Under the pieces are notes generated by a model that was not told the origin of the DNA, ran no database searches, and was given only the letters and a program-made list of their open reading frames with translations. A DNA stretch of 64,000 nt from a bacterium (lineage in GTDB: Bacteria; Zhuqueibacterota; Zhuqueibacteria; Residuimicrobiales; Krinioviventaceae): positions 1-64,000 of the forward strand of contig JAKQIY010000044.1 in the NCBI GenBank assembly GCA_029561455.1. Direction: 5' to 3'. The translations under genes and the position numbers were made by a program. This document shows, piece by piece, positions 18,549 to 30,860 of the stretch (position 1 is the first letter of the stretch; each line of letters starts with the position of its first letter).

Positions 18549-18737
18549 TTTTTTGAATTTTATTAATAAACGGATTAGTATTTGGTTTGTTTACAGGACA
18601 ACTAACATTATATAGTATACATACGGATAAAATACTTGGCAGTGTAATACAGAGATTATCAATCCACTCTTGATAGATCACAATACATATTTTGTTGTTT
18701 ATATTATATCAATCGATATATGAATAGAGGAATTTTT

Positions 18738-20066
18738 ATGCGTAATTCCGGAGTTTTAATAATTTTATTTTTGGTAACCGGATCGATAGCCAGGTCACAG
18801 CATGCACCGTTAACCTTTTCTGCCCCCTGGACATCTCCATACCATGTTGATGCGGCCAGCAAATTCCATTTTGTCAATGATGAGGGAACCCATTTGTTTA
18901 TACTCAACAAAACCGCCTGGGCCTATTTCGCGTGTAAAAATCCAGAACAGGTTTTACAGCGGGCTGTTGATCAGGGTGTCAATGTCATCCGCGTTGCTTT
19001 GGAAGGAAGACCATATTATAAACAATTAGGGCTGGATATGTGGCCCTGGGGTGGAAACAGGGAAAATCCGCTTTGGCACGAGTTCAACCAGGATTACTGG
19101 CAGCAAGTGGAAGACCGGATACGTCTGGCCGGGGAATATGGTGTGGGATTGGACCTGGTGTTGTATTTTACATTATTCCCGGATGCTGCAGACACTGTTA
19201 ATCAGCGGGCTTATTGGCAATATACCTTAACACGGCTGGCAAAATATAGTAATATTCTGATCTGGGAAATTGCCAACGAGTACATTGAAAATGAGCTTTT
19301 TCAGGATACTGCCGGATATTACCTGCAATTGCATGACCCATTCAATCGCCCGGTATGCAGTTCGGACGGGACGACGGATGATGCTGTGTGGCCTGATAAA
19401 AGCTGGATGGATGTAGCCGTCAACCATTCCTGCACTTCCTCAACCGACGCCTATCCGCTGGATAAATGGTATTTAGCGGTAGCGCAAAATACCCGCGCGC
19501 ATGGCAAACCGGCGTTCTGTAATGAATCCGGGCGGGAGAAGCGGCATAAAAATGATGATGGAGTTCACCGCCGCAAGCAAGGGTGGTTGTGGTGTTCCGC
19601 CGGTTGTTACTGGACCTGGCATAGTTGGGATGGCTGTGAAGGGATAGATGATATTGATTATTATACTCCAGGTCAGGAGTTCCTTAAACCTATGGCCGAT
19701 TATTTCCGCGCTATGCCTTTTTACCGGTTGGCGCCAAATTATACAGTGGTAACGATAGATTCCACACAGTTGGTCAGTGTAACGCTGGCTGATGCCGGGC
19801 GTAACCTGATTTCTGCTTATGTTTGCAGTAAAACTAGCGGCGACATGGTGACCGGTGTTGTCGCTGCGCTGCGATTACCGGACGGGGAGTACCTCGTAAA
19901 ATTTAAAAGCCCGGTAAACCTGGCAGTTGTAGAAGAGAAGCAAGTTATTTCATCCGGTTTGAAGAAAATAAATATGTTGGCGTTACCCGCTTTTAAGGAC
20001 GACCTGATAATTAGAATAGAAAAAGTGTTATCCGCAGAAAAAACAAAAATCCCCGGAACAGAATAG
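18738..20066 (+). CDS. Secreted GH5-like (DUF4038/GH140-type) glycoside hydrolase
   Basis: A 442-residue exported TIM-barrel hydrolase. The start at 18738 has AGAGGA before it and begins a signal peptide (LIILFLVTGSIARS); an in-frame ATG at 18720 has no ribosome binding site. The opening KFHFVNDEGTHLFILNKTAWAYF is the DUF4038/apiosidase-like signature. Likely acid/base is E181 in IANEYIE and likely nucleophile is E263 in FCNESGRE. The large protein at 60994 has the same core (shared GVHRRKQ/GIHRRKQ, YWTWHSWDGCEGI). It lies 190 bases after the epimerase, perhaps under its own promoter, and could trim the operon's polymer or act on plant glycans. Confidence 0.75.
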   Translation: MRNSGVLIILFLVTGSIARSQHAPLTFSAPWTSPYHVDAASKFHFVNDEGTHLFILNKTAWAYFACKNPEQVLQRAVDQGVNVIRVALEGRPYYKQLGLDMWPWGGNRENPLWHEFNQDYWQQVEDRIRLAGEYGVGLDLVLYFTLFPDAADTVNQRAYWQYTLTRLAKYSNILIWEIANEYIENELFQDTAGYYLQLHDPFNRPVCSSDGTTDDAVWPDKSWMDVAVNHSCTSSTDAYPLDKWYLAVAQNTRAHGKPAFCNESGREKRHKNDDGVHRRKQGWLWCSAGCYWTWHSWDGCEGIDDIDYYTPGQEFLKPMADYFRAMPFYRLAPNYTVVTIDSTQLVSVTLADAGRNLISAYVCSKTSGDMVTGVVAALRLPDGEYLVKFKSPVNLAVVEEKQVISSGLKKINMLALPAFKDDLIIRIEKVLSAEKTKIPGTE

Positions 20067-20150: not shown

Positions 20151-21170
20151 TCAGGAGCAGAGTTGTACGCCAAAATCGCGTAAAGCCTGGGCCTGGGCCA
20201 GCAGGTTTTCCACCGGGGTGCCGTCCGGGATTTCGCAGCCGGCCATGCTGATGCAGGTGGCGCCGCCCTGCTGCATACATTGCAGCGTCGCCTGGCGGAC
20301 GCTTGCCGGTGAACTTTGCAGCATCACCGCTACCGGGTCAAAGTTCCCGCAAATTGCCGGATAGCCGCCATACAGTGCGGCGGCTTGGCCAAAATCCACC
20401 ATCCAGTCCAGGTCGATAATATCAGCGCCGCTCTGCACCATTTCGTTCAAAATCAACGAGGTATTGCCGCAAATATGCAGGCGCGGAATGGCGCCCATTT
20501 CCTTAACTGCCGCAAAGATGCGCTGCTGGTACGGCAGGGCAAATTCGCGGTACAGCGCCGGAGAGATTTGCGACACAACCGAATCGCCCAGGCCGATGAT
20601 ATTCGCCCCGGCCTGAACCTGGGCGCGGGCAAAATTGATCGCTACAGTAACGCACAATTCCAGCAATTCTTTGACCCATTGCGGTCTTTCGTACAGATCC
20701 ATCATTAAAGCGCTAACACCGCGCAGATCCGCGGCTTCGGCCAGCGCGCCTTCCACCCAGCCCATTACCGGCATAGTATCGCCAGCCTGTTCCCGGAAAC
20801 GGGTTATAGCTTGCAGCCTGTCGGTCATGCGTTTGCCGTCTTCCGGTTTTACAAGAGTCATCTTTAATAGATCTGTTTCATTTTGCAACAGGGGAATTTT
20901 GCACACCGGCAGGCCGTCATAAGGGAATTCAATCTGCGCGCCCAAATCCGCCGCTTCGCGGTAAGGATCGGAAATTGCCTGCAAAATATCAAGAGCAAAC
21001 GCTTCGGCCACTGCAAAATTAGCGTCACACAATACCCGGTAGTCGAGGTAATAGCGGGACAATGGCTGCTTGATATAATGAGCGGCAAAGGTCATCATAA
21101 TATTAAAGTTGGGGGGACGATCAACCGGTTCGCCCCGCAGCCGCTTTTGCACGCGTTGTATAGCATTCAT
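20151..21170 (-). CDS. UROD-family corrinoid methyltransferase (MtaA/CmuA-like)
   Basis: A 339-residue member of the uroporphyrinogen-decarboxylase fold. The decarboxylase itself is unlikely, because the operon carries corrinoid and homocysteine methyl-transfer genes. The zinc site of MtaA-type methyltransferases is present: HICGN in the middle (H-x-C) and a third Cys in SMAGCEIPDGTP near the C terminus. Other family landmarks are VEGALAEAADLRG and the repeated ICGNFDP. It would move a methyl group between a corrinoid protein and a thiol or another acceptor in the cytoplasm. Last gene of the operon. No intrinsic terminator is obvious in the 84 bases to the convergent gene. Confidence 0.85.
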   Translation of the reverse strand: MNAIQRVQKRLRGEPVDRPPNFNIMMTFAAHYIKQPLSRYYLDYRVLCDANFAVAEAFALDILQAISDPYREAADLGAQIEFPYDGLPVCKIPLLQNETDLLKMTLVKPEDGKRMTDRLQAITRFREQAGDTMPVMGWVEGALAEAADLRGVSALMMDLYERPQWVKELLELCVTVAINFARAQVQAGANIIGLGDSVVSQISPALYREFALPYQQRIFAAVKEMGAIPRLHICGNTSLILNEMVQSGADIIDLDWMVDFGQAAALYGGYPAICGNFDPVAVMLQSSPASVRQATLQCMQQGGATCISMAGCEIPDGTPVENLLAQAQALRDFGVQLCS

Positions 21171-21188
21171 AACAACAGACCACTGGTT

Positions 21189-22265
21189 TTATTTATAATT
21201 GATAACAGTTTCAACCAAGGCGCAGTAATTTCTGGCCGGGATATAATCGGAAATTGAATTGCCGGAGCCGATTGCCAAACCACCCTTGTCGCCGGCAATC
21301 CGCAACAGGTTGGTCACCCGTTTACGGACATCGGCAGTGGTTTTTTTCGCCATAAAGTTCATATCAATGCCGCCCATTATACCGATCCGGTCTCCCCAGC
21401 AGGTATAAGCCTCTTCAACCGGAAAGATGTTATCTTCGAAGGAATGTTTGGCGTCGAATTTCATATCGTCGGTTATATCCGGCAGCACTTGTTCCAGGTT
21501 GCCGCAGGAGTGGAGAATGACCGGTTTGCCGGCCTGGTGACAGAGTTCCACCAATTTTTTATACCATGGGAAAATATAGGCGCGCAGGGCGTCGGGACTG
21601 AGCATGGTTTGGGTCTTGAACCCCCAGTCATCATTGGCCAACAAGGCGCCGACGGCGTCATATTGCAGGCAGTTTTGGTAAAATTGCAGAATACGGGAAC
21701 CGACATTGTTAAATATTTCTCCGGCCAGTTCCGGGTCTTCGAACAGCATGATGCACAGGTTTTCAAAACCGACAATGTTGATCACAGTTTCCAGCACTCC
21801 CTCATAACCGCTAACGATCAGCTTCATGCCGGCAGGTAATTCGGCGGCAATTTTGTGCAGCGCCGAATAATCACCAGACAGTGGATCGGGCCAGTTATAG
21901 TCGGCAAAACCGGCGCGGTCGGTGATCATGGCGCCATCATTCAATGATTTTGAGGCTTTTTTATGAACGTTTGCAGTCGGGAAGATCATGGCGCGCAAGT
22001 GCCAGCCGCCAATGACGGCATAATCGTACCCGGCATTATAAAAACCCCGGGTCAGAAAGCGGCACCAGCCCAGCGCGTCGTCCTGCGGCGGTATCGGCAG
22101 GCCGCTGATCCTGGAGATGAATTTATCATTTATTATGAACTCGAATAAAGTGGGGCGAGAGGGACGTTGCCGCCGGCATATTGATAAAATATTCCCGAAA
22201 TCCGGCTTTCTGTTCAGATCTTGTATCTTTTTTACCAGTTTTTCCAGGATGACCAAATCAGGCAT
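21189..22265 (-). CDS. UROD-family methyltransferase-like protein, incomplete zinc site
   Basis: A 358-residue UROD-fold protein. It keeps HSCGN (H-x-C) in the position of the zinc motif, but the late Cys of MtaA-type enzymes is replaced by a Ser/Gly stretch (LAIGSGNSISDYIP). The ending SGNSISDYIP..N is common in UROD paralogues of corrinoid clusters, whose substrates mostly remain unknown. It may bind the methyl donor substrate rather than a thiol acceptor. Spacing to the next gene downstream is 18 bases. Confidence 0.8.
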   Translation of the reverse strand: MPDLVILEKLVKKIQDLNRKPDFGNILSICRRQRPSRPTLFEFIINDKFISRISGLPIPPQDDALGWCRFLTRGFYNAGYDYAVIGGWHLRAMIFPTANVHKKASKSLNDGAMITDRAGFADYNWPDPLSGDYSALHKIAAELPAGMKLIVSGYEGVLETVINIVGFENLCIMLFEDPELAGEIFNNVGSRILQFYQNCLQYDAVGALLANDDWGFKTQTMLSPDALRAYIFPWYKKLVELCHQAGKPVILHSCGNLEQVLPDITDDMKFDAKHSFEDNIFPVEEAYTCWGDRIGIMGGIDMNFMAKKTTADVRKRVTNLLRIAGDKGGLAIGSGNSISDYIPARNYCALVETVINYK

Positions 22266-22299
22266 TCAATAATTCACTTTATGTTGATAATGCAGCTCA

Positions 22300-23019
22300 T
22301 CAGGTTTTGATTTTTCTATAAATACACTGTTTATCATCGCACAAGTTACAGGCATAGCCGCGGCGTTTGACATCCGGGCCTATACCGATAATGCCGCTAA
22401 CAGATTTTATCGGTATCATCAGGGCGGTTTCGGTCAGCCGGATGCCGCAATAACCCGGCGGCAGCAGGGAAAAAAGTAAATGCTGTTCCGCAACCGGCCA
22501 GTTGCAATATCCGGGACTGTAGCGGTTGGTTATTCCCAAACCCAGTTCGCGCATTTGCGCTTCAAGATAATTGTGGGTTTGTTCAACAGCCTGTTCCACC
22601 GCTTCAGAGGCTACGGCATCGACAATATAGCCTTTGAGGTAATCGCCGTTATCGATCAGTTGCCGCGACCAGTTTTCCATGCCGGGGCCGATAGTACAGA
22701 GAAATACTGCCACAGCGACAGCTTTTTTCATTTGCACGGTAATAATTTTTTCCGTCCTGAAATCGAGTCCGCCAAAATGCAGAGTTTTATAATCCGGCTC
22801 GGCCAAAAGATCATTAAATATTTTATAGCCACTGGCCGGTTCCATCCGGCGCCGGGATTCACTAATTATTTTGTCGATCATATCATCGATGTGCCGGTCG
22901 GAGTGGTTGAGCGGATAGCCAATTCCAACCCGGATGATGGCTGGGTCTATAACCAGCTTTTCAAGTAGTGGTTGAATAGAGACCAATTCTTCAACCGGTA
23001 AGGCGCTCGTCTCCGTCAT
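22300..23019 (-). CDS. Stand-alone MetH reactivation-domain protein
   Basis: A 239-residue homologue of the C-terminal SAM-binding activation domain of cobalamin-dependent methionine synthase. The key stretch is NRYSPGYCNWPVAEQHLLF (RxxPGY-type SAM site), followed by GIRLTETALMIPIKSVSGIIG. A cysteine tail, CNLCDDKQC, is not in canonical MetH and could bind a metal or iron-sulfur centre. In MetH this domain re-methylates cob(II)alamin using SAM and an electron. Here it would rescue the separate corrinoid protein encoded at 26153-26818. Its start overlaps the stop of the homocysteine-methyltransferase gene by four bases. Confidence 0.85.
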   Translation of the reverse strand: MTETSALPVEELVSIQPLLEKLVIDPAIIRVGIGYPLNHSDRHIDDMIDKIISESRRRMEPASGYKIFNDLLAEPDYKTLHFGGLDFRTEKIITVQMKKAVAVAVFLCTIGPGMENWSRQLIDNGDYLKGYIVDAVASEAVEQAVEQTHNYLEAQMRELGLGITNRYSPGYCNWPVAEQHLLFSLLPPGYCGIRLTETALMIPIKSVSGIIGIGPDVKRRGYACNLCDDKQCIYRKIKT

Positions 23020-23909
23020 ACTTTTTTATACTGTTTTACAGCCAGTTTGAGTTGTTGAATGTGTTCCGGTCCTGTACCGCAGCAGCCACCGATAATATTA
23101 GCTCCGGCCTGAATTAACTGCGGAACCAGAGCGGCCATTTCCTGCGGGGTTTCCGGAAAGACGGTTTTACCGTCCTGAAGGAGCGGTTTGCCGGCATTGG
23201 CGTGTACCAATATGGGAATATCGCGGTTGGCAGTACGGAGTTCCCGGACGATTTCAACCATGCGGCTCATCCCGTTACCGCAATTGGTACCGATGATATC
23301 TACACCCAGTTTTTGCGTCATTTCCAGCATTTGGCGGGGAGAAACGCCCATCATAGTACGGTAATCGCCGTTTATAGTTCTTTCAAAGGTGAATGTACAA
23401 ACAATTTCCAGATCGGTATTTTCTTTGACGGCTCTGATGGCCTGTTCGGCTTCATCCAGCGCCGACATGGTTTCGATACAGACGGCATCGACGCCGCCAT
23501 CGTAAAGCCCCTGCGCCTGAATTTTAAAGCCTTCATATAATTCCTGTTCGGTTACATCGCCCATCATCAGGATGACCCCGGTAGGGCCTATGGAGCCGAG
23601 AACAAAATAATCCTTTCCGGCAGCCCGCCGCGATATGGCGGCAGCCGCTTTATTGATCTCGTACACCTTATCCGACAGGTTATAATGCTGTAATTTAAAG
23701 GGGTTGGCGCCAAAGCTGTTGGTGAGCACCATGTCGGCTCCGGCCTGAATGTATTGATGTGGAATATCTTCCACCAGTTCGGGATGCGTCAGGTTCCATG
23801 ATTCCGGGCATTCGCCGGACTGCAAGCCTTTTTTATGTAAAAACGTACCCCAGGCGCCGTCTGAAACCAATATGCGGCCGGTTTTGAGTATATCGGTGAT
23901 TTTTTTCAT
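23016..23909 (-). CDS. Homocysteine S-methyltransferase domain protein (MetH N-terminal-like)
   Basis: A 297-residue betaine/homocysteine methyltransferase-family protein, equivalent to the first domain of MetH. The opening ILVSDGAWGTFLHKKG, the TNSFGAN motif, and the zinc cysteines in GTNCGNG and GGCCGTGPEHI are all present. The start at 23909 (MKKITDILKTG) has TGGGAA a few bases before it; a longer frame from 23936 has no ribosome binding site. It should methylate homocysteine from a methyl-corrinoid protein. No folate-binding domain is fused to it or present nearby, so the methyl group probably comes from the UROD-type enzymes. It is separated from the upstream gene by about 180 bases, the only sizeable gap in the operon. 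Confidence 0.88.
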   Translation of the reverse strand: MKKITDILKTGRILVSDGAWGTFLHKKGLQSGECPESWNLTHPELVEDIPHQYIQAGADMVLTNSFGANPFKLQHYNLSDKVYEINKAAAAISRRAAGKDYFVLGSIGPTGVILMMGDVTEQELYEGFKIQAQGLYDGGVDAVCIETMSALDEAEQAIRAVKENTDLEIVCTFTFERTINGDYRTMMGVSPRQMLEMTQKLGVDIIGTNCGNGMSRMVEIVRELRTANRDIPILVHANAGKPLLQDGKTVFPETPQEMAALVPQLIQAGANIIGGCCGTGPEHIQQLKLAVKQYKKV

Positions 23910-24092
23910 ATTATTCCCAGCTTGGTAACATAACAACCGGCTCGTACCCGGTGATTATCAGTATTAAAAGTAAATTTATGGAAAAAGTTTATTTGGCTGA
24001 TCAGTACCAATGAACAACCGGTTATTTGAAATATAGGAAATGATTAGCAGTTTTCAAAATACTTATGTAAAAACCTGGATAAAAAATTATTT

Positions 24093-25187
24093 TTAACCAA
24101 GTACTTTGGCCTGGGGAGTGAACCCGCGTTCGTCAAACAAGTCAAACATCTTTTCCAGCACCTCCGGTTTTGATTGCATGTCGCCGATCCAGAAATACAT
24201 GCTGGTATTATGCTGCATACAATCAAGCATATAGTGCAGCATATCGGCTTCGTCGGAAAAATCTCCCCATTTGCGTGTATCTTCAGTTAGATGCATTCCG
24301 GCGCAAAGGTGCGGAGCCAGCACCGCCCGTCCGGAAAATTCACGGATAATTATTTTTGCATCCACAGAATTACCGGGATTCCAGTTATATGCCCGGATAT
24401 TGGGAATTTTTTTAATATTTTCAAAATACTCTTCCCGCCAGGTGCAGGAATGATAAAACAGCGGGCCACAGGCTTGCGCGATTTTTATCACCCAAGGCAG
24501 ACTGAACTGTTCGTGCATCGCAGGAGACAGCAGTGAAAGAGTATCATCAGAACATAAGGTGCCTTCATTATTATTCCAGATATATGGGAATTGTGTGCCA
24601 TTCAATCTGTTACCGCAGATTTTACGCATCTCATTGATAAAACGAATGATAAAGCTGGTAATATCCTGAAGCAGCGCTTGTATCGGTTCAGGATTGAGCA
24701 GTAATGCCGTGTACAGACCAGAGCCACAAATCACTTCGGCAATGCCCAGCGGGGACTGGATATCGACGGCGCGGATTTGTTCATTATCTTTTAAACCGGT
24801 CATCAGCTTTTGCATGGCGCACAGCAACTCACCGCTTTTACCTTCCCAAACATCATTGTTCGGCAAGGGTAAAGACGACCGGTTAAGTAAATCCTCTTCA
24901 GTAAACAAAGGCTCTGCCCATTCCTTGCCATCCTCCATGATAATAGTACGGCATCCCACTGCCAGGGGAAAAATGCAGGTACTGTTTCCCGGCACTTGAA
25001 CCGCTGATTGTGGTGACCAGTCCCATATCGCCAGCTTGTTCAGTTTATTACTGCTCGAAGAAATGCCATTCAGCGAGTAAAAACAATTTTTTTCCGCGGG
25101 ATGGGTAAAAGCGTGCAGCAACATATCTTGCATTTGCATGTTTATCCGGGACTGGTCAGCTTTTGTTATCATTTCCGTATTGTCCAT
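24093..25187 (-). CDS. Divergent UROD-family protein (HSCTW variant)
   Basis: A 364-residue UROD-fold protein, the most divergent of the five here. The zinc motif position reads YHSCTWREEY (H-x-C kept, following Gly-Asn lost), and the late Cys is missing. The segment SRLNG..FPYIWNNNEGTLCSDD and the ending IGDMQSKPEVLEKM are recognisable family features. ATG at 25187 is preferred over TTG at 25205, both of which overlap the upstream gene's end. Function is unknown; a substrate-specific methyltransferase or a binding partner are both possible. Confidence 0.65.
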   Translation of the reverse strand: MDNTEMITKADQSRINMQMQDMLLHAFTHPAEKNCFYSLNGISSSSNKLNKLAIWDWSPQSAVQVPGNSTCIFPLAVGCRTIIMEDGKEWAEPLFTEEDLLNRSSLPLPNNDVWEGKSGELLCAMQKLMTGLKDNEQIRAVDIQSPLGIAEVICGSGLYTALLLNPEPIQALLQDITSFIIRFINEMRKICGNRLNGTQFPYIWNNNEGTLCSDDTLSLLSPAMHEQFSLPWVIKIAQACGPLFYHSCTWREEYFENIKKIPNIRAYNWNPGNSVDAKIIIREFSGRAVLAPHLCAGMHLTEDTRKWGDFSDEADMLHYMLDCMQHNTSMYFWIGDMQSKPEVLEKMFDLFDERGFTPQAKVLG

Positions 25188-26163
25188 ATTCTCGCCATGC
25201 CTCAATCATTGCCATGAAATTTTCTTTATGCGTTTGCGGTTGTATTACATTGGATGCGCCTAGTACAAAACCGCCGCCCGGTTTGTTCAATTGCAGTAAG
25301 CGGCTTGTTTCCTCAAATACCTGTTCAGGCGCGCCTTGCAGAAACAGACCGCAATCCACATTTCCGCACAGGCACACCTTATTTAACGCTTGTTTTTTTA
25401 CATTCGCAAGCTCTATTCCGGCAACGGGGTCGAGCGCCTGGAGGGCCATAATCCCGCTCGACAGCAGTTCAGCAAGGCAGGGCATGATATTACCATCCGA
25501 ATGTAAAATGGGAAATGCCTGTAATTTTTTAATTTCCCCGGCCCAGCGCCGCAGCCAGGGCAGAATGAACTCCTGCATTTGCTGAGGGTTAAAATAGGGA
25601 CCCCGGTTATCGGCCAGATCCGAGGCAGTGATAAAGCCTTCCACTCCGGCATCCCGCAGTCTTTTCGCATTTTCCAGGCCCTGGCTATAACAATCTTGCG
25701 CTTGACTGGCAATTTTCTCAGGCTCTTCCAGCATTTGTATGGAAAAGGATAGATAATTGTCAGCGCCGGGCATAGCCAGTACCCCGCCGGTGATAGCCAT
25801 GAGCAGCACGTCGTTATGTGCTATATTATACAATAATTTCGCCTGTTGTATGCGTTTCTGCGGCGGCAGCCAGAACCAGGCTGGTGCACCGGGCGCTATT
25901 TCCCAGTAGCCGCCAGGAATGGTCAGCGCTGCAAATTTATATTCACTGCTAACCCAATACATAATTTCTGCATTAGTATGCAGTGCCCGTTCCTGCTCTT
26001 TACGGGTTAGTTTGGTAAACTCTGTACCCAAGATTACCCGTTGGTCACTGAATCTATCCCAAAGATGAAATTCCAGTTCCCACAACGGCACTGCGCCCTG
26101 CGGCTGACGGCAATGCAGGGCATCTAGAATGTCAGTTAATGGTGAACTCAAATCAGGCGACAT
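25156..26163 (-). CDS. UROD-family protein with Asp in place of the zinc Cys
   Basis: A 335-residue UROD-fold protein. The centre reads FPILHSDGNIMPCLAELL, the HSDGN form in which the metal-binding Cys of MtaA-type enzymes is Asp. It also lacks the late Cys (FVLGASNVIQPQTH). HSDGN members are frequent among uncharacterised UROD paralogues and may act on the methylated substrate rather than on a thiol. The start overlaps the corrinoid-protein stop by 11 bases, which points to co-translation and possibly a direct methyltransferase-corrinoid pair. Confidence 0.8.
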   Translation of the reverse strand: MSPDLSSPLTDILDALHCRQPQGAVPLWELEFHLWDRFSDQRVILGTEFTKLTRKEQERALHTNAEIMYWVSSEYKFAALTIPGGYWEIAPGAPAWFWLPPQKRIQQAKLLYNIAHNDVLLMAITGGVLAMPGADNYLSFSIQMLEEPEKIASQAQDCYSQGLENAKRLRDAGVEGFITASDLADNRGPYFNPQQMQEFILPWLRRWAGEIKKLQAFPILHSDGNIMPCLAELLSSGIMALQALDPVAGIELANVKKQALNKVCLCGNVDCGLFLQGAPEQVFEETSRLLQLNKPGGGFVLGASNVIQPQTHKENFMAMIEAWREYGQYGNDNKS

Positions 26164-26818
26164 AACTGTTTAGTAATTTCACTGCCGCCTGCGGATCAGG
26201 AGCATAACCATCGGCATGGATCTTGTTGGCAAAATCCTGGGTCAGAGGCGCGCCGCCAACCAGCACTTTGGTGGCAGGGTACTTGGCTTTGATGGCCTGA
26301 ATGGATTTTTCCATATTGACCATGGTGGTCGTGAGCAAGGCGCTCATACCGACGATGGCGTTCGGATGCTGAGCTATAGCTGCCAAATATTTATCGGTGG
26401 AGACATCCACGCCCAGGTCGATCACTTCCCAGCCGTTGCCTTCAACCACCATGCTCACCAGTTTTTTGCCAATGTCGTGTAAATCGCCGGCAACGGTGCC
26501 GATGATGAATTTGCCTTTGCGCTGCACACTGCCGGACTGGAAGAAGGGCTTTAAATGCACCATGACTGCGTTCATTGCCTTGGCGGACATGAGCAGTTCC
26601 GGCACGAATGCTTCATTCTTTGCAAATTTTTCACCGATGCTCTGCATGCCCTGCATACAAGCGCCGAGGATCCGGTTGGCATCGATCCCGGCTTCGATAG
26701 CCTGTTTGGCCAGTTCATCGGCGCCATCCTGTTCGCGTAAATCCGGGGGGTACGGCGAGGTTTTATTGGTTTTGCCCCGTTCAATACATATAGCTAGTTT
26801 CACGATTATCTCGTCCAT
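26153..26818 (-). CDS. Corrinoid (B12-binding) methyl-carrier protein, MtaC/MtbC-like
   Basis: A 221-residue two-domain corrinoid protein like the cobalamin module of MetH and the MtaC/MtbC family. Residues about 30-100 form the helical cap (GIDANRILGACMQGMQSIGEKF, then FVPELLMSAKAMN). Residues about 103-221 form the Rossmann B12 domain with the signature GDLHDIGKKL (His114 as lower cobalt ligand), SALLTTTM (about 159-166) and GGAP (188-191). It should carry the methyl group between the UROD-type enzymes and the homocysteine methyltransferase. Strong position evidence: directly upstream of the HSDGN UROD gene. Confidence 0.93.
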   Translation of the reverse strand: MDEIIVKLAICIERGKTNKTSPYPPDLREQDGADELAKQAIEAGIDANRILGACMQGMQSIGEKFAKNEAFVPELLMSAKAMNAVMVHLKPFFQSGSVQRKGKFIIGTVAGDLHDIGKKLVSMVVEGNGWEVIDLGVDVSTDKYLAAIAQHPNAIVGMSALLTTTMVNMEKSIQAIKAKYPATKVLVGGAPLTQDFANKIHADGYAPDPQAAVKLLNSYVA

Positions 26819-26839
26819 GTGGTTTCCTTTCGTACGTTG

Positions 26840-27760
26840 TTATATATGAAAAAATGATAATGATTGTCTGAATTCCGCATTATCCAGTCCGGGGCCGAGT
26901 GCGATCAGTTCGGTTTGCCCGGAATAGTCCGTTATTATTTCTATGGTCGTTCTACCAAAGCATGATTGTACAGCCGCCATTTTTCCATCATCTAATTTAA
27001 CAAATCCTTTTAAACGATGGATTTTATTTTCTGCGGACCGGACAAATTTTTCCAGCGTTTCCCGCGAAACCGGCCGGGTATGGCGGTAGACCACCGAGCC
27101 GATGTCCGGACGGGGACCGGACTGTTCATTTACAGGCAGTTGCGCCGCATTGCGCCCCGGTTCCGTATATTCGGCCAATTGCCCGGCAAAAGGAATGTCG
27201 CAAAATTGGGTGACGCGGATGTCGGCAAACGGGTTCAGTTCCCTGATCCTGTTGTGGATTGCTGGTTCATTACAGTTCCCCAGATCCGTTTTGTTGATGA
27301 GCACGGTGTCGGCAATGCGCACCTGGTGTATGACCCGTGTAATATTTCGCGCGTATTTAAGGAAATTCACTGCGTCCACCACACACCAGATATGCGCCAG
27401 ATACAGTCGGTTTTTCAGAGACTCCGCTTCCAGCAATTGTCCAATCGCAATGGGATCGGCCAGACCGGTGGCTTCCAGGATGATGGCGTCAAACGATTGC
27501 GATTGTACCAGTTCCGTAAGTTGTTTTATAAAATCGCCCAGCAGGCACACACAGAAAACCGAACCTTTATTGATTTCCACAATTGTAAAGGATTTGCCGG
27601 TGCGCTGCAATTCACGGCTGTCGGCATGGCCGGTAGAAAATTCATTCTGGATGACCGCGATTTTTTTCGTATCCGCATAAGAATCGATAAACCGTTTCAG
27701 CAGGGTGGTTTTGCCGCTGCCCAGAAAACCGGTGATGAGGAAAAAAGGCACGCTGCTCAT
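26840..27760 (-). CDS. CobW/COG0523-family GTPase
   Basis: A 306-residue P-loop GTPase with Walker A GFLGSGKT at residues 11-18, the Cys-containing switch region GSVFCVC in place of the usual CxCC metal motif, EATGLADP, and the NKTD guanine-specificity motif. The C-terminal CobW domain includes HRLKGFVKLDDGK. COG0523 proteins deliver metals (cobalt, zinc, nickel) or support cofactor loading. Here it may load zinc into the UROD-type enzymes or help corrinoid assembly. ATG at 27760 is preferred because it forms a TTATGA overlap with the previous stop and has AAGGAT upstream; a frame from 27778 also exists. Confidence 0.85.
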   Translation of the reverse strand: MSSVPFFLITGFLGSGKTTLLKRFIDSYADTKKIAVIQNEFSTGHADSRELQRTGKSFTIVEINKGSVFCVCLLGDFIKQLTELVQSQSFDAIILEATGLADPIAIGQLLEAESLKNRLYLAHIWCVVDAVNFLKYARNITRVIHQVRIADTVLINKTDLGNCNEPAIHNRIRELNPFADIRVTQFCDIPFAGQLAEYTEPGRNAAQLPVNEQSGPRPDIGSVVYRHTRPVSRETLEKFVRSAENKIHRLKGFVKLDDGKMAAVQSCFGRTTIEIITDYSGQTELIALGPGLDNAEFRQSLSFFHI

Positions 27761-29379
27761 AACAGATCCTTTACCCATTCTTTAATGAGCAGCGCCGGGG
27801 GGATTTTTGCTTCGGACCTGATCTTGTAAATTGCCGTAACAATCGCCGGGGTGCGGCTAACGCCAAACGAGGCAATTTCTTTATTATCGGTAATTTCCAC
27901 GACCGGCACGTCTGCGCCCAGTTCCCGGATAGCTTTATCAACTTCAGGCCGGAGTTTTAGTATTTCTTCACTGGTGCGACCCAGGATAAACACCGAACCC
28001 TTGCGTATCCTGATCTTGTGATATAATTTTTCATTGATCCGGTTTTGAATGGCCTGGATCAATTCCTGCTTGCCGGGAATACGGGAGACAAAGGTGATCT
28101 TGCCGTCTATACAGATGGTGGGAATGTTTTTAACCATCAGGGCGGTCATGAACTGGATGGATTCCTGGTGTTTGATCTTGTGTTCGTGCCATTCGACAAT
28201 TGCCTCGAAATGCGGGGCAACCTGTTTGACCGCTTCCACCATGTACTGGCAGGGGGCGCAGGATTCGGAATCCAGGGTAATAATATCTATGATTACTTTA
28301 TCCGCCACGCCATAGTCGCTCATATCGGGCACTGCTTCGGCGGAGGGTTGTTTTTCCAGGGTTATAATAACCTGCTGTTGATAAGGATTGTGCAGCAGGT
28401 TGGTTACCGCTTTTAGATTGGCGGGCGGCGTAGCGTAGGGCAGGTCGCAGCCGGGCGCCAGGATAAAGCCGGTATTGCCGGCAATTTGCAGGCATTCCAT
28501 GGCGTTACGCTGCGCATCGGTCTCGTCGCCCAGCAACAGGGTAATGGTAAGCTGCAGATTGCCGCCAAAGCTGATGCCCTGGCGGGCGCAAATATCGCGG
28601 ACATAATCGAGTGGTATATTTTCATCAATGGAGACATTGTCCGGTTTGCATTCGGCCATAGCCTGAATGATATGCCGGGCGTGGCCGCAGACGAAGAATG
28701 ATCCCAGCCTTTTCAATTTTTTAATGTGGCGGAATATCTCCGCAGCCGGCCCGGCAACAAACTGGCGGAACTGTTCTTCGCTGATCTGGCTGGTGAGGGG
28801 ATCGACCACGGCGATCACATCGCAGCCGGCGTCGCTATAGTATTTGGTTATTGCCATACATACATCGCGGCAAAAGTCGATCAGGCGCTGCACGGCTTCC
28901 GGATCTTCGTACATGTGCATAAACAGATCAGTGCCGGCCAGGTGCATAGCCAGGGTAAAGGGTCCGGTGACGGCGCCGTACAGGGCAATGTCCGGGAACT
29001 CGGCACGGATGGTTTGAGCGGCGCCGAGCATAATCGGCAGGCGACCTTCAGATGGTAGAGGAATATGCAGATCCTGTAAGGATTTACCTTCCGCCAGGGG
29101 ATGGCTGGCGACCGCCGGGGGATTCTCATCGGCCCACACCAAGTTGCAGCCGAGAATTTCGGCCTCGATTTGCAGATCAAAGGCGACCGGAATGCCGTCC
29201 GGCCGGTAGCTGCGAATGGCGGCACGGATACCGTTTTCTATATGCTGCCGGTTGGTGAGATAGTCACGGGCGCTAACGTTGATGAGGGCGCCGCCGTGGC
29301 AGCCGACAAAAGGCACCCAAGGAACCCGTTCCACCGGGCGACGCTGCATGGCTGCTGTAACTAGTTGTTTACCGGTCAT
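27757..29379 (-). CDS. UROD-family methyltransferase fused to two thioredoxin-like domains
   Basis: A 540-residue fusion. Residues about 1-340 are a UROD-fold methyltransferase. Its middle motif is SFFVCGHARHI, with Cys but with the preceding His replaced by Phe and a His two residues later. The late Cys is kept (LAPGCDLPYATP). Residues about 362-440 form a thioredoxin-like domain with a CAPC redox pair (C374, C377) and a cis-proline site NIPTICIDGK. About 450-540 form a second thioredoxin-like unit with SRTPAIV but no CxxC. It is the first gene of the operon, with AGGAG eight bases before ATG. The redox domain may recycle a thiol acceptor or keep zinc cysteines reduced. Confidence 0.85.
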   Translation of the reverse strand: MTGKQLVTAAMQRRPVERVPWVPFVGCHGGALINVSARDYLTNRQHIENGIRAAIRSYRPDGIPVAFDLQIEAEILGCNLVWADENPPAVASHPLAEGKSLQDLHIPLPSEGRLPIMLGAAQTIRAEFPDIALYGAVTGPFTLAMHLAGTDLFMHMYEDPEAVQRLIDFCRDVCMAITKYYSDAGCDVIAVVDPLTSQISEEQFRQFVAGPAAEIFRHIKKLKRLGSFFVCGHARHIIQAMAECKPDNVSIDENIPLDYVRDICARQGISFGGNLQLTITLLLGDETDAQRNAMECLQIAGNTGFILAPGCDLPYATPPANLKAVTNLLHNPYQQQVIITLEKQPSAEAVPDMSDYGVADKVIIDIITLDSESCAPCQYMVEAVKQVAPHFEAIVEWHEHKIKHQESIQFMTALMVKNIPTICIDGKITFVSRIPGKQELIQAIQNRINEKLYHKIRIRKGSVFILGRTSEEILKLRPEVDKAIRELGADVPVVEITDNKEIASFGVSRTPAIVTAIYKIRSEAKIPPALLIKEWVKDLL

Positions 29380-29472
29380 ATAAGAACTCCTGATAATTTA
29401 TAATTTATTTGAAACAGAGTTTCAGGGCCAATTTCCTATCCAAACTGGAGTTTGAACGGGAGAGAAGGGAAT

Positions 29473-29570
29473 GTGTAGCACACCTTTCTGCAAATTCCAT
29501 AAAAACAAAGTGATATTCCAATGTATAGATTGAAAACTTATAGCGAACAATTTTCGTAGGTGTACTACAC
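29473..29570. promoter_or_regulatory. Pair of palindromic candidate operators upstream of the corrinoid operon
   Basis: Two copies of the pseudo-palindrome GTGTRSYACAC occur at 29473-29483 and 29560-29570. Each sits within a longer inverted copy (arms 29464-29485 and 29558-29580, about 20 of 22 bases matching). They lie between the regulator gene and the first methyltransferase gene. The form GTGT-N3-ACAC suits a dimeric GntR-type regulator, and the 87-base spacing could allow looping. The other 29380-29673 sequence has no gene. Confidence 0.45.
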
Positions 29571-29610
29571 ATTCCCGTTCTATACCTTTTGATACAGCCT
29601 TGTTATTGTG

Positions 29611-29673: not shown

Positions 29674-30714
29674 TTACGTCTCCCTGATTACCAGGTCCGG
29701 TTGAATGACATACTGGCAATAGCGGGTATCGCGGCCCTGCAAATGCTGGTCGATAATATCGGCGGTGCGGGCGGCCATGTCCCGGCAATGGCAGTCGATG
29801 GATGTGATGCCCGGCGTGAAATATTGCGCCAGTTCGGTATTGCCATAGCTGATGATGGAAATATCGTCCGGAATAAGGAAATTCCATTGCTGCAAGCGGC
29901 CAATGACGCGGATCGCGTCGGCGTCGTCGCTGCACAGGATGCCGGTAATATGGCGCTGTAATAAAAACTCGCGGCTCAGGGTTTGCAGGTTGTCCAGCAC
30001 CATGGCCTGGCGTTCGGGCGTCTCCTGGCCGACAAAACTTTTAAAAGTCTCTTCCATCAGTTCCTGCACCATATTGCGCCCCGCCCACAGGCTGTTTTTT
30101 ATAAATACCAGGTTGCCGGGATTTTTACCAGTCAGGTAGTGAACGGCGCGTTTGACGCCGAGATCGTAGCTTTGAATGGTATAGGTAAAATACGAGCCGG
30201 TCATAGTGTGGTCGAGCAGGGTGACGACCGTGCCGCCGGAGACCAGGTTGCGGTAGAACCCCGCGGTGCGGGTTTCGTCAAAAGTGGGAATGACAATGAC
30301 GGCCTCATAGCGCTGCCGGATCATGGAACCGACCAGGCGGATCTCCTCGCGCCAGTTATTATAATCGATATAATGTTCCAGTTTTTTATCGGCCAGCGAG
30401 GCGAATTCGTGCAGGTACCCCAGCAGGCTGTCGATTTGCGCGGAAAAGAACGGCACGACCACACCCCACAGTTGCTGGCGGGGGCCGAGGTCGGCGACAA
30501 ACGATCCCTTGCCGGCTTTTTTAACAATGAGTTTTTCCGCAGCCAGCTTTTGCAGCACCAGCTTGGCGGTTTCGCGGGATACGTTAAAGCGATCCATCAT
30601 GAGAGTAATGGAATCGATACGCGCGCCGGGCGGTGATTGCTGGGTGAGGATAGCCTGGCGGTAATATTCAACCAATTGCCGGTAAAGAGGAATGTGTTGC
30701 GGTTCGTTTTCCAT
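29674..30714 (-). CDS. GntR-type regulator with LacI-like sensor domain
   Basis: A 346-residue transcription factor of the AraR-type hybrid family. Residues about 1-75 are a GntR winged helix (HIPLYRQLVEYYRQAILT, then RFNVSRETAKLVLQKLAAEKLI, KKAGKGSFVA). The rest is a periplasmic-binding-protein fold ending DDISIISYGNTELAQYFTPGITSID, typical of LacI-family sensors. Such sensors usually bind sugars. The start at 30714 begins exactly at the GntR domain; a longer frame from 30768 would add a hydrophobic, unlikely extension. It is encoded just upstream of, and in the same direction as, the corrinoid operon, so it is the likely regulator of it, and a sugar-like ligand would hint at methylated sugars as substrate. 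Confidence 0.88.
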   Translation of the reverse strand: MENEPQHIPLYRQLVEYYRQAILTQQSPPGARIDSITLMMDRFNVSRETAKLVLQKLAAEKLIVKKAGKGSFVADLGPRQQLWGVVVPFFSAQIDSLLGYLHEFASLADKKLEHYIDYNNWREEIRLVGSMIRQRYEAVIVIPTFDETRTAGFYRNLVSGGTVVTLLDHTMTGSYFTYTIQSYDLGVKRAVHYLTGKNPGNLVFIKNSLWAGRNMVQELMEETFKSFVGQETPERQAMVLDNLQTLSREFLLQRHITGILCSDDADAIRVIGRLQQWNFLIPDDISIISYGNTELAQYFTPGITSIDCHCRDMAARTADIIDQHLQGRDTRYCQYVIQPDLVIRET

Positions 30715-30860
30715 AATACACCAATATAATAAAAAATGACGCAGGGAACAAGTAAAAAAATACATCACATCACATCACAGTTGGATTGTCTGAACAATTA
30801 CCGCCTCTACCTGTTCGGCAACGGGGTAATTGTCCTATGGAAATGGCGTGTTGACCAGGT

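Follow-up and report, generated by a model that had tools for sequence, protein, structure and literature searches.

A nine-gene operon of a Zhuqueibacterota bacterium: a probable corrinoid methyl relay with MetH-type parts

What is the function of an operon in which proteins of the uroporphyrinogen decarboxylase (UROD) type are encoded beside separate parts of the methionine synthase MetH? A nine-gene operon of this kind (29379-20151, minus strand) lies in the 64,000-nucleotide stretch analyzed here (the window; contig JAKQIY010000044.1, assembly GCA_029561455.1), which belongs to a Zhuqueibacterota genome of 5.85 Mb and 98.8% completeness. The gene order is U1trx, CobW, Cor, U2, U3, HMT, ACT, U4, and U5, where U1trx (U1) to U5 are the UROD-type proteins, CobW is a GTPase, Cor is a corrinoid protein, HMT is a homocysteine methyltransferase domain, and ACT is a stand-alone activation protein. 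A GntR/LacI-type regulator gene, REG, lies upstream of the nine genes. We consider it probable that these genes specify a corrinoid methyl relay with methionine as the end product, organized in the style of a demethylase but with acceptor and activase parts of the MetH type.

A first-pass annotation of this DNA had described nine co-directional genes with short gaps or overlaps. This held for all junctions (overlap, or a gap of no more than about 35 nucleotides) except for the 156 to 183 nucleotides ahead of HMT; for HMT and U3, an internal ATG is the probable start. The assignments of HMT, the activation protein, the corrinoid protein, and the CobW GTPase were confirmed by Pfam. Of the five UROD-fold proteins it had counted, four were recovered with the Pfam URO-D model (U1, 200 bits; U2, 70 bits; U4, 73 bits; U5, 219 bits). 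U3 scored 19.2 bits, below the cut-off of 23.9, and its core aligned to the U5 family in a profile comparison with an E value of 2e-4 and a probability of only 48%; it is likely, but not proven, to be the fifth UROD. The separation of three MetH-type parts into individual genes and the missing pterin domain, also noted in that annotation, proved to be features of a conserved unit. No pterin methyltransferase was found in the window, and the HMT-Cor-ACT unit recurs in independent genomes, which excludes chance as the cause of the arrangement.

Some contigs of the relatives compared had been deposited under the name candidate division KSB1. In three genomes of the same family (G036, G042, and G043), a minimal operon consists of the four adjacent genes U5-Cor-HMT-ACT. 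A genome of the same genus (G037) has the order REG-U1trx-CobW-Cor-U2-HMT-ACT-U5, and G041 has an enlarged version with RACo, adjoined by a sugar transporter, GFO/IDH/MocA oxidoreductases, and a sulfatase. HMT was also found beside Cor in G040, G016, G121, and G054, and no pterin domain was found in those loci.

The genome has no second stand-alone corrinoid methyl carrier beside Cor; the B12-binding proteins other than Cor and a MetH are about 470 to 500 residues long. HMT belongs to PF02574, without a match to the MetE-type family Meth_synt_2 (COG0620), and its best solved relative is the MetH of T. maritima (1q7m). The three zinc cysteines (Cys plus GGCC) and the DGAxG and ET motifs of MetH were kept in the eight homologues examined. 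ACT is the genome's only PF02965 protein, and its model (predicted local distance difference test [pLDDT] score, 91.6) has the fold of the MetH activation domain, with TM-scores of 0.71 and 0.84 against TM0269 (1j6r). A C-terminal CxxCxxxxC motif was invariant in 9/9 operon-type ACT homologues and absent from the TM0269-like group; operon-type ACT additionally carries C172 and C191. The Cys-rich tail is possibly a metal or Fe-S site. Gene content, synteny, and motifs are thus observed directly, as are the predicted folds of ACT and of U5 (below).

PF14574, the C-terminal domain of RACo-type activases, was not found anywhere in the genome, which leaves ACT as the reactivase. RACo was likewise not found in G000, G036, G040, G042, G043, G068, G069, and G016. 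ACT and Cor also occur without HMT. In three loci (L059, L163, and L161), they are accompanied by the methanol methyltransferase MtaB, and in a fourth (L092), the contig with Cor and a UROD also encodes a pterin-type methyltransferase. This gene content suggests that corrinoid proteins of this kind share ACT as a general activase and that HMT is one of several acceptor enzymes that can replace one another. The MtaB loci, from Bacteroidota and phylum-mates, are operons that pair MtaB, Cor, and the MetH-type ACT with U5 or U4, a make-up for which we found no description among methanol systems.

The operon would follow the four-part plan of demethylases (substrate methyltransferase, corrinoid protein, acceptor methyltransferase, and activating enzyme), with MetH-type proteins in the last two places. 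A UROD would move the methyl group from its donor to Cor, and HMT would transfer it from methyl-Cor to homocysteine, yielding methionine. ACT would return Co(II)-Cor to the active state like the MetH activation domain, with S-adenosylmethionine and an electron donor, and would fill the job done elsewhere by RACo or Ram, while CobW would probably deliver a metal (zinc or cobalt). Because MetH-type parts hold the last two places, the methyl group would be assimilated without methyl-tetrahydrofolate, with methionine as the product. We infer these catalytic steps, and likewise the donors, the part played by U1, and the REG effector.

The operon is not the genome's sole methionine synthase; that candidate was rejected, since an 800-residue MetH with HMT, pterin, and B12 domains, and without an activation domain, is encoded elsewhere. 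This MetH and a protein of about 288 residues (dihydropteroate synthase size) are the two PF00809 proteins of the genome, both on other contigs, and a third PF02574 protein has about 620 residues. The first-pass annotation had named a pterin-dependent MetH elsewhere as evidence against a bypass of methyl-tetrahydrofolate. Such an enzyme exists; since it carries a B12 domain of its own, the idea is not refuted. The label "split methionine synthase," however, was misleading. In addition to the module, G036, G041, and G043 encode a MetH of about 1,135 to 1,141 residues, full-length by size and with room for an activation domain, so in these genomes the module cannot be explained simply as a fragmented MetH. 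Judged by sequence, the HMT-Cor-ACT module is a second system that duplicates the output of MetH.

True uroporphyrinogen decarboxylase (HemE), an alternative raised at the outset, was ruled out by the curated cut-offs, as the best TIGR01464 score was 95.6 against 303 bits. Recent duplication as the origin of U1 to U5 was rejected as well (pairwise identity of 13 to 22%). The URODs had been proposed to feed the corrinoid protein, and they are the only candidate methyl donors in the unit, but they differ from one another: among the five, the His-Cys-Cys (HCC) site of thiol methyltransferases is confined to U5. In UROD-superfamily methyltransferases, HCC goes with S or Se substrates and carboxylate or missing ligands go with O-methyl substrates (PMC10418091), and zinc is not needed by some members (PMC13222342). 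The sites of U2 to U4 look O-type or zinc-free, and U2, U4, and probably U3 would most likely act on O-methyl substrates, perhaps derived from sugars. U1 has F-x-C plus a third Cys, with Phe in place of the zinc His in all four U1trx copies examined (the window, L053, L061, and L084). The C-terminal part of U1 consists of two thioredoxin-like domains, with a CAPC motif conserved in four homologues. UROD proteins of about 545 residues, similar in length to U1trx, are widespread in the phylum.

The site residues of U5 (H232, C234, and C312) were conserved in 86/86 sequences, or 84/84 for the third ligand, where two were gapped. The structure nearest to the U5 AlphaFold model (pLDDT, 95.7) is M. 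mazei MtaA (Z score of 41.8, root mean square deviation of 1.9, 328 residues, 23% identity); the two proteins are 27.6% identical over 210 columns and 23% over the whole fold. U5 thus shares the fold and the HCC zinc site of the MtaA/MtbA coenzyme M methyltransferases, but it fell below the curated cut-off of the MtaA/CmuA family (TIGR01463; 167.7 versus 235.4 bits). In the four-gene operon, U5 would be the donor-side partner, demethylating thioethers, unless a donor enzyme acts in trans. In 82 genomes of the phylum, the median number of URODs among the matches listed was 6 with a stand-alone corrinoid protein and 1 without (Mann-Whitney p of 1.7e-5, uncorrected for phylogeny), with a maximum of at least 22. 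Counts of two genome sets were kept separate; G035/G126, G044/G119, G055/G130, and G056/G107 are apparently the same genome twice.

A link to sugars had also been suggested, and the carbohydrate context does recur in related loci, although the donor itself is unproven. A sugar transporter, GFO/IDH oxidoreductases, and a sulfatase lie near the operon relative in L061, and L161 has GH127 and a sugar transporter with ACT, a 417-residue UROD, and U5. No sulfur genes were seen among the genes scanned in these two loci. Some solitary U5 genes in Chloroflexi adjoin GH127, fucose isomerase, or other sugar enzymes. The genome's five other URODs adjoin genes for a sulfatase, sugar transporter, PfkB-type kinase, esterase, or DUF6807 protein (one or two neighbors scanned each). 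In the window, an apiosidase-like glycoside hydrolase gene (18720-20066) adjoins the operon end and converges on it. Rhamnogalacturonan II contains apiose together with 2-O-methyl-xylose and 2-O-methyl-fucose, and this pairing is only a lead to the donor. Carbohydrate contexts favor O-methyl sugars and the U5 site favors a thioether or thiol. An anaerobic route from O-methyl sugars through the URODs and a shared Cor to homocysteine, by a MetH-type, folate-independent transfer with a Cys-tailed ACT and a sugar-sensor-like regulator, is proposed only tentatively.

Several observations weigh against the relay. RACo is also present in G037, G041, and G054. With one methionine made per methyl group, the relay could not absorb a large methyl flux, and a catabolic role would need another acceptor. 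The thiol-type site of U5, the one UROD of the minimal operon, counts against carbohydrate donors. It would suit a salvage of methyl-S or methyl-Se groups, in which U5 (possibly with U1) demethylates thioethers or selenides, the other URODs are minor, and sugars are irrelevant. Salvage is likewise proposed for type 1 mlp gene clusters, and ClMlp2 moves methyl between methylcobalamin and selenide (PMC10418091); the full conservation of the U5 site and its structural nearness to MtaA point the same way. However, the HCC set is missing from U2, U3, and U4, there is no Ram, and the scanned genes of L061 and L161 include sugar transport and glycan genes rather than sulfur genes. We regard salvage as unlikely. 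The rivals considered here overlap with one another and with the relay.

U5 also sits with MtaB, next to Cor and ACT, in L161 and L163, which points to an acceptor-side role there. If U5 acted on the acceptor side in the operon too, as MtaA itself does, excess methyl would pass to a thiol, and methyl groups would leave the system by two routes, through HMT into biosynthesis and through U5 for disposal. The donors would then be U2 to U4 and URODs encoded elsewhere, and further URODs do lie in the genome's carbohydrate loci. However, no further donor enzyme is encoded in the four-gene operon, so this alternative appears doubtful. U5 may even act outside the methyl relay, as its close homologues are mostly solitary and away from corrinoid genes. 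Homologues of 60 to 70% identity occur, mostly alone, in Chloroflexi, Gemmatimonadota, Acidobacteria, and others, and the operonic U5s do not group as one clade (tree with low support). Of 50 tested genomes with such homologues, half gave an ACT-like match; at the least, a B12-domain match to Cor was present in every one, and in some of them the matching protein is only MetH. U5 was rejected as an operon marker, because most homologues in 80 loci were solitary, with neighbors of no single theme. The HCC site is fully conserved in the solitary genes (L094-L145), which are mainly from Chloroflexi and away from corrinoid genes.

Finally, ACT may also serve the 800-residue MetH, because it is the only PF02965 protein of the genome and that MetH lacks an activation domain. 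These two facts would also fit a dispersed but ordinary methionine synthase, in which the pterin domain of the 800-residue MetH (or another folate enzyme) methylates Cor, ACT reactivates both, and the URODs are passengers. A stand-alone activation protein (1j6r) and a three-part MetH (PMC5764234) are precedents. This explanation is improbable, given that URODs accompany Cor and ACT in distant loci, that three genomes with the U5-Cor-HMT-ACT parts additionally encode a MetH of about 1,140 residues, and that the 800-residue MetH has its own B12 domain.

In the relay as we favor it, the regulator may mark the output. The loci examined had been chosen for corrinoid, HMT, or UROD genes, and the association of REG with HMT alone applies to those loci rather than to whole genomes. 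Four sites among them carry REG or a homologue of it, namely, the window, L053, L262, and L264 (L093, JAFGSB010000070.1, is the same locus as L053 of G037 and was counted once). REG directly precedes HMT in L262 and L264, and the other two copies belong to operons of the window type. As REG accompanies HMT and not the URODs, homocysteine methylation looks to be the regulated output. The REG reading frame begins at GTG, and the internal ATG of MENEPQH is the likelier start. At all four copies, an invariant TGATGTGATGTGAT block, part of a GTGAT-repeat element, lies just 5' of a promoter-like TTG-TATA pair; 0.02 occurrences of the 19-mer are expected in the window at three or fewer mismatches. 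No Rfam riboswitch match was obtained in the window and five related loci. A 110-bp segment in the REG-U1 gap (29467-29576), with terminal 19-bp inverted repeats that are 95% complementary, looks like a small inserted element; it was not found in the sister locus L053, where the gap is about 50 bp. In L264 (4030-11110), REG-HMT is followed by an uncharacterized 399-residue protein, CbiA/NifH-like ATPases, and a prismane/CO-dehydrogenase-family protein, a gene set that suggests a Wood-Ljungdahl link in that genome. The coordinates of the features in the window are listed in Table 1.

Table 1. Features of the operon and its upstream region
Feature	Position	Strand	Basis
Candidate operator/promoter element TGTGATGTGATGTGATGTA, 5' of REG	30761..30779	-	TGATGTGATGTGAT core invariant at all four REG copies
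REG, regulator with GntR DNA-binding domain and LacI-type sensor	29674..30768	-	Pfam GntR, Peripla_BP_3
U1trx, UROD domain and two thioredoxin-like domains	27757..29379	-	Pfam, site alignment
CobW/COG0523 GTPase, likely metallochaperone	26840..27778	-	Pfam cobW 129 bits, CxC motif
Cor, MtaC/MtgC-type corrinoid protein	26153..26818	-	B12-binding and B12-binding_2 (Pfam), DxHxxG motif
U2, UROD-type, H-x-D, without third Cys	25156..26163	-	Pfam, site alignment
U3, divergent UROD-like, H-x-C, without third Cys	24093..25205 (ATG start ~25187)	-	Profile comparison
HMT, homocysteine S-methyltransferase domain	23016..23936 (ATG start ~23909)	-	Pfam S-methyl_trans 243 bits
ACT, stand-alone MetH-type activation protein	22300..23019	-	Met_synt_B12 44 bits (cut-off 25)
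U4, UROD-type, H-x-C, without third Cys	21189..22265	-	Pfam, site alignment
U5, MtaA-like UROD, His232-Cys234-Cys312 site	20151..21170	-	Pfam, site alignment, model

The O-demethylase systems of acetogens have a separate ATP-dependent activating enzyme of the RACo/Ram kind. The operon shares with UROD-type O-demethylases such as CdmBCA the four functions of UROD substrate methyltransferase, corrinoid protein, acceptor methyltransferase, and activating enzyme, the first two being recognized here by sequence. However, the acceptor there is tetrahydrofolate, reached via a pterin-binding enzyme (PMC13222342), whereas the operon has HMT and ACT and neither a tetrahydrofolate methyltransferase nor a RACo-type activase. 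Type 1 mlp gene clusters, defined by at least two Mlps with over 25% identity to a characterized SCMT, are similar in having several UROD-superfamily methyltransferases and a corrinoid protein, no folate methyltransferase within 20 kb, and a proposed link to methionine salvage (PMC10418091). They differ in that they use Ram/RACE rather than a MetH-type activation protein, have core genes without a homocysteine methyltransferase, and encode Mlps that are almost all HCC, whereas in the operon only U5 is.

Among methionine synthases, MetH and Thermotoga TM0268/TM0269 have the same HMT, B12, and activation modules, and the activation protein is also separate in the latter. In contrast to these, and to the four domains of complete MetH in one chain, the operon has separate genes and no pterin domain, its corrinoid protein is of the MtaC/MtgC type, and ACT has the extra CxxCxxxxC tail. 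The three-part synthase of Phaeobacter inhibens likewise has separate HMT and corrinoid genes, but it keeps a pterin protein that charges the corrinoid protein and reactivates via RamA-like and DUF1638 proteins (PMC5764234), whereas the operon encodes no such pterin subunit. The core folate-independent synthases MesA to MesD also make methionine without methyl-folate, and MesA to MesC are thought to use corrinoid proteins, but these enzymes are MetE-type (PMC7857596), unlike the PF02574 HMT with its dedicated corrinoid protein. Taken singly, the parts of the operon are all known. The searchable literature, mostly without subscription papers, yielded no description of their combination, of the four-gene core, of the activase with its Cys tail, or of the regulator linked to HMT and its promoter element; in particular, no described system with HMT, a corrinoid protein, a UROD, and ACT was found, in agreement with the first-pass annotation.

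If the relay reading is true, the folate-independent methionine synthases, which are described as four families of the MetE type (PMC7857596), would gain a member of the MetH type. Some of the many UROD-family proteins in the genomes of anaerobes would have a job, and demethylase-like operons would have a corrinoid activase of a second kind. Methyl groups of environmental compounds would then enter methionine directly.

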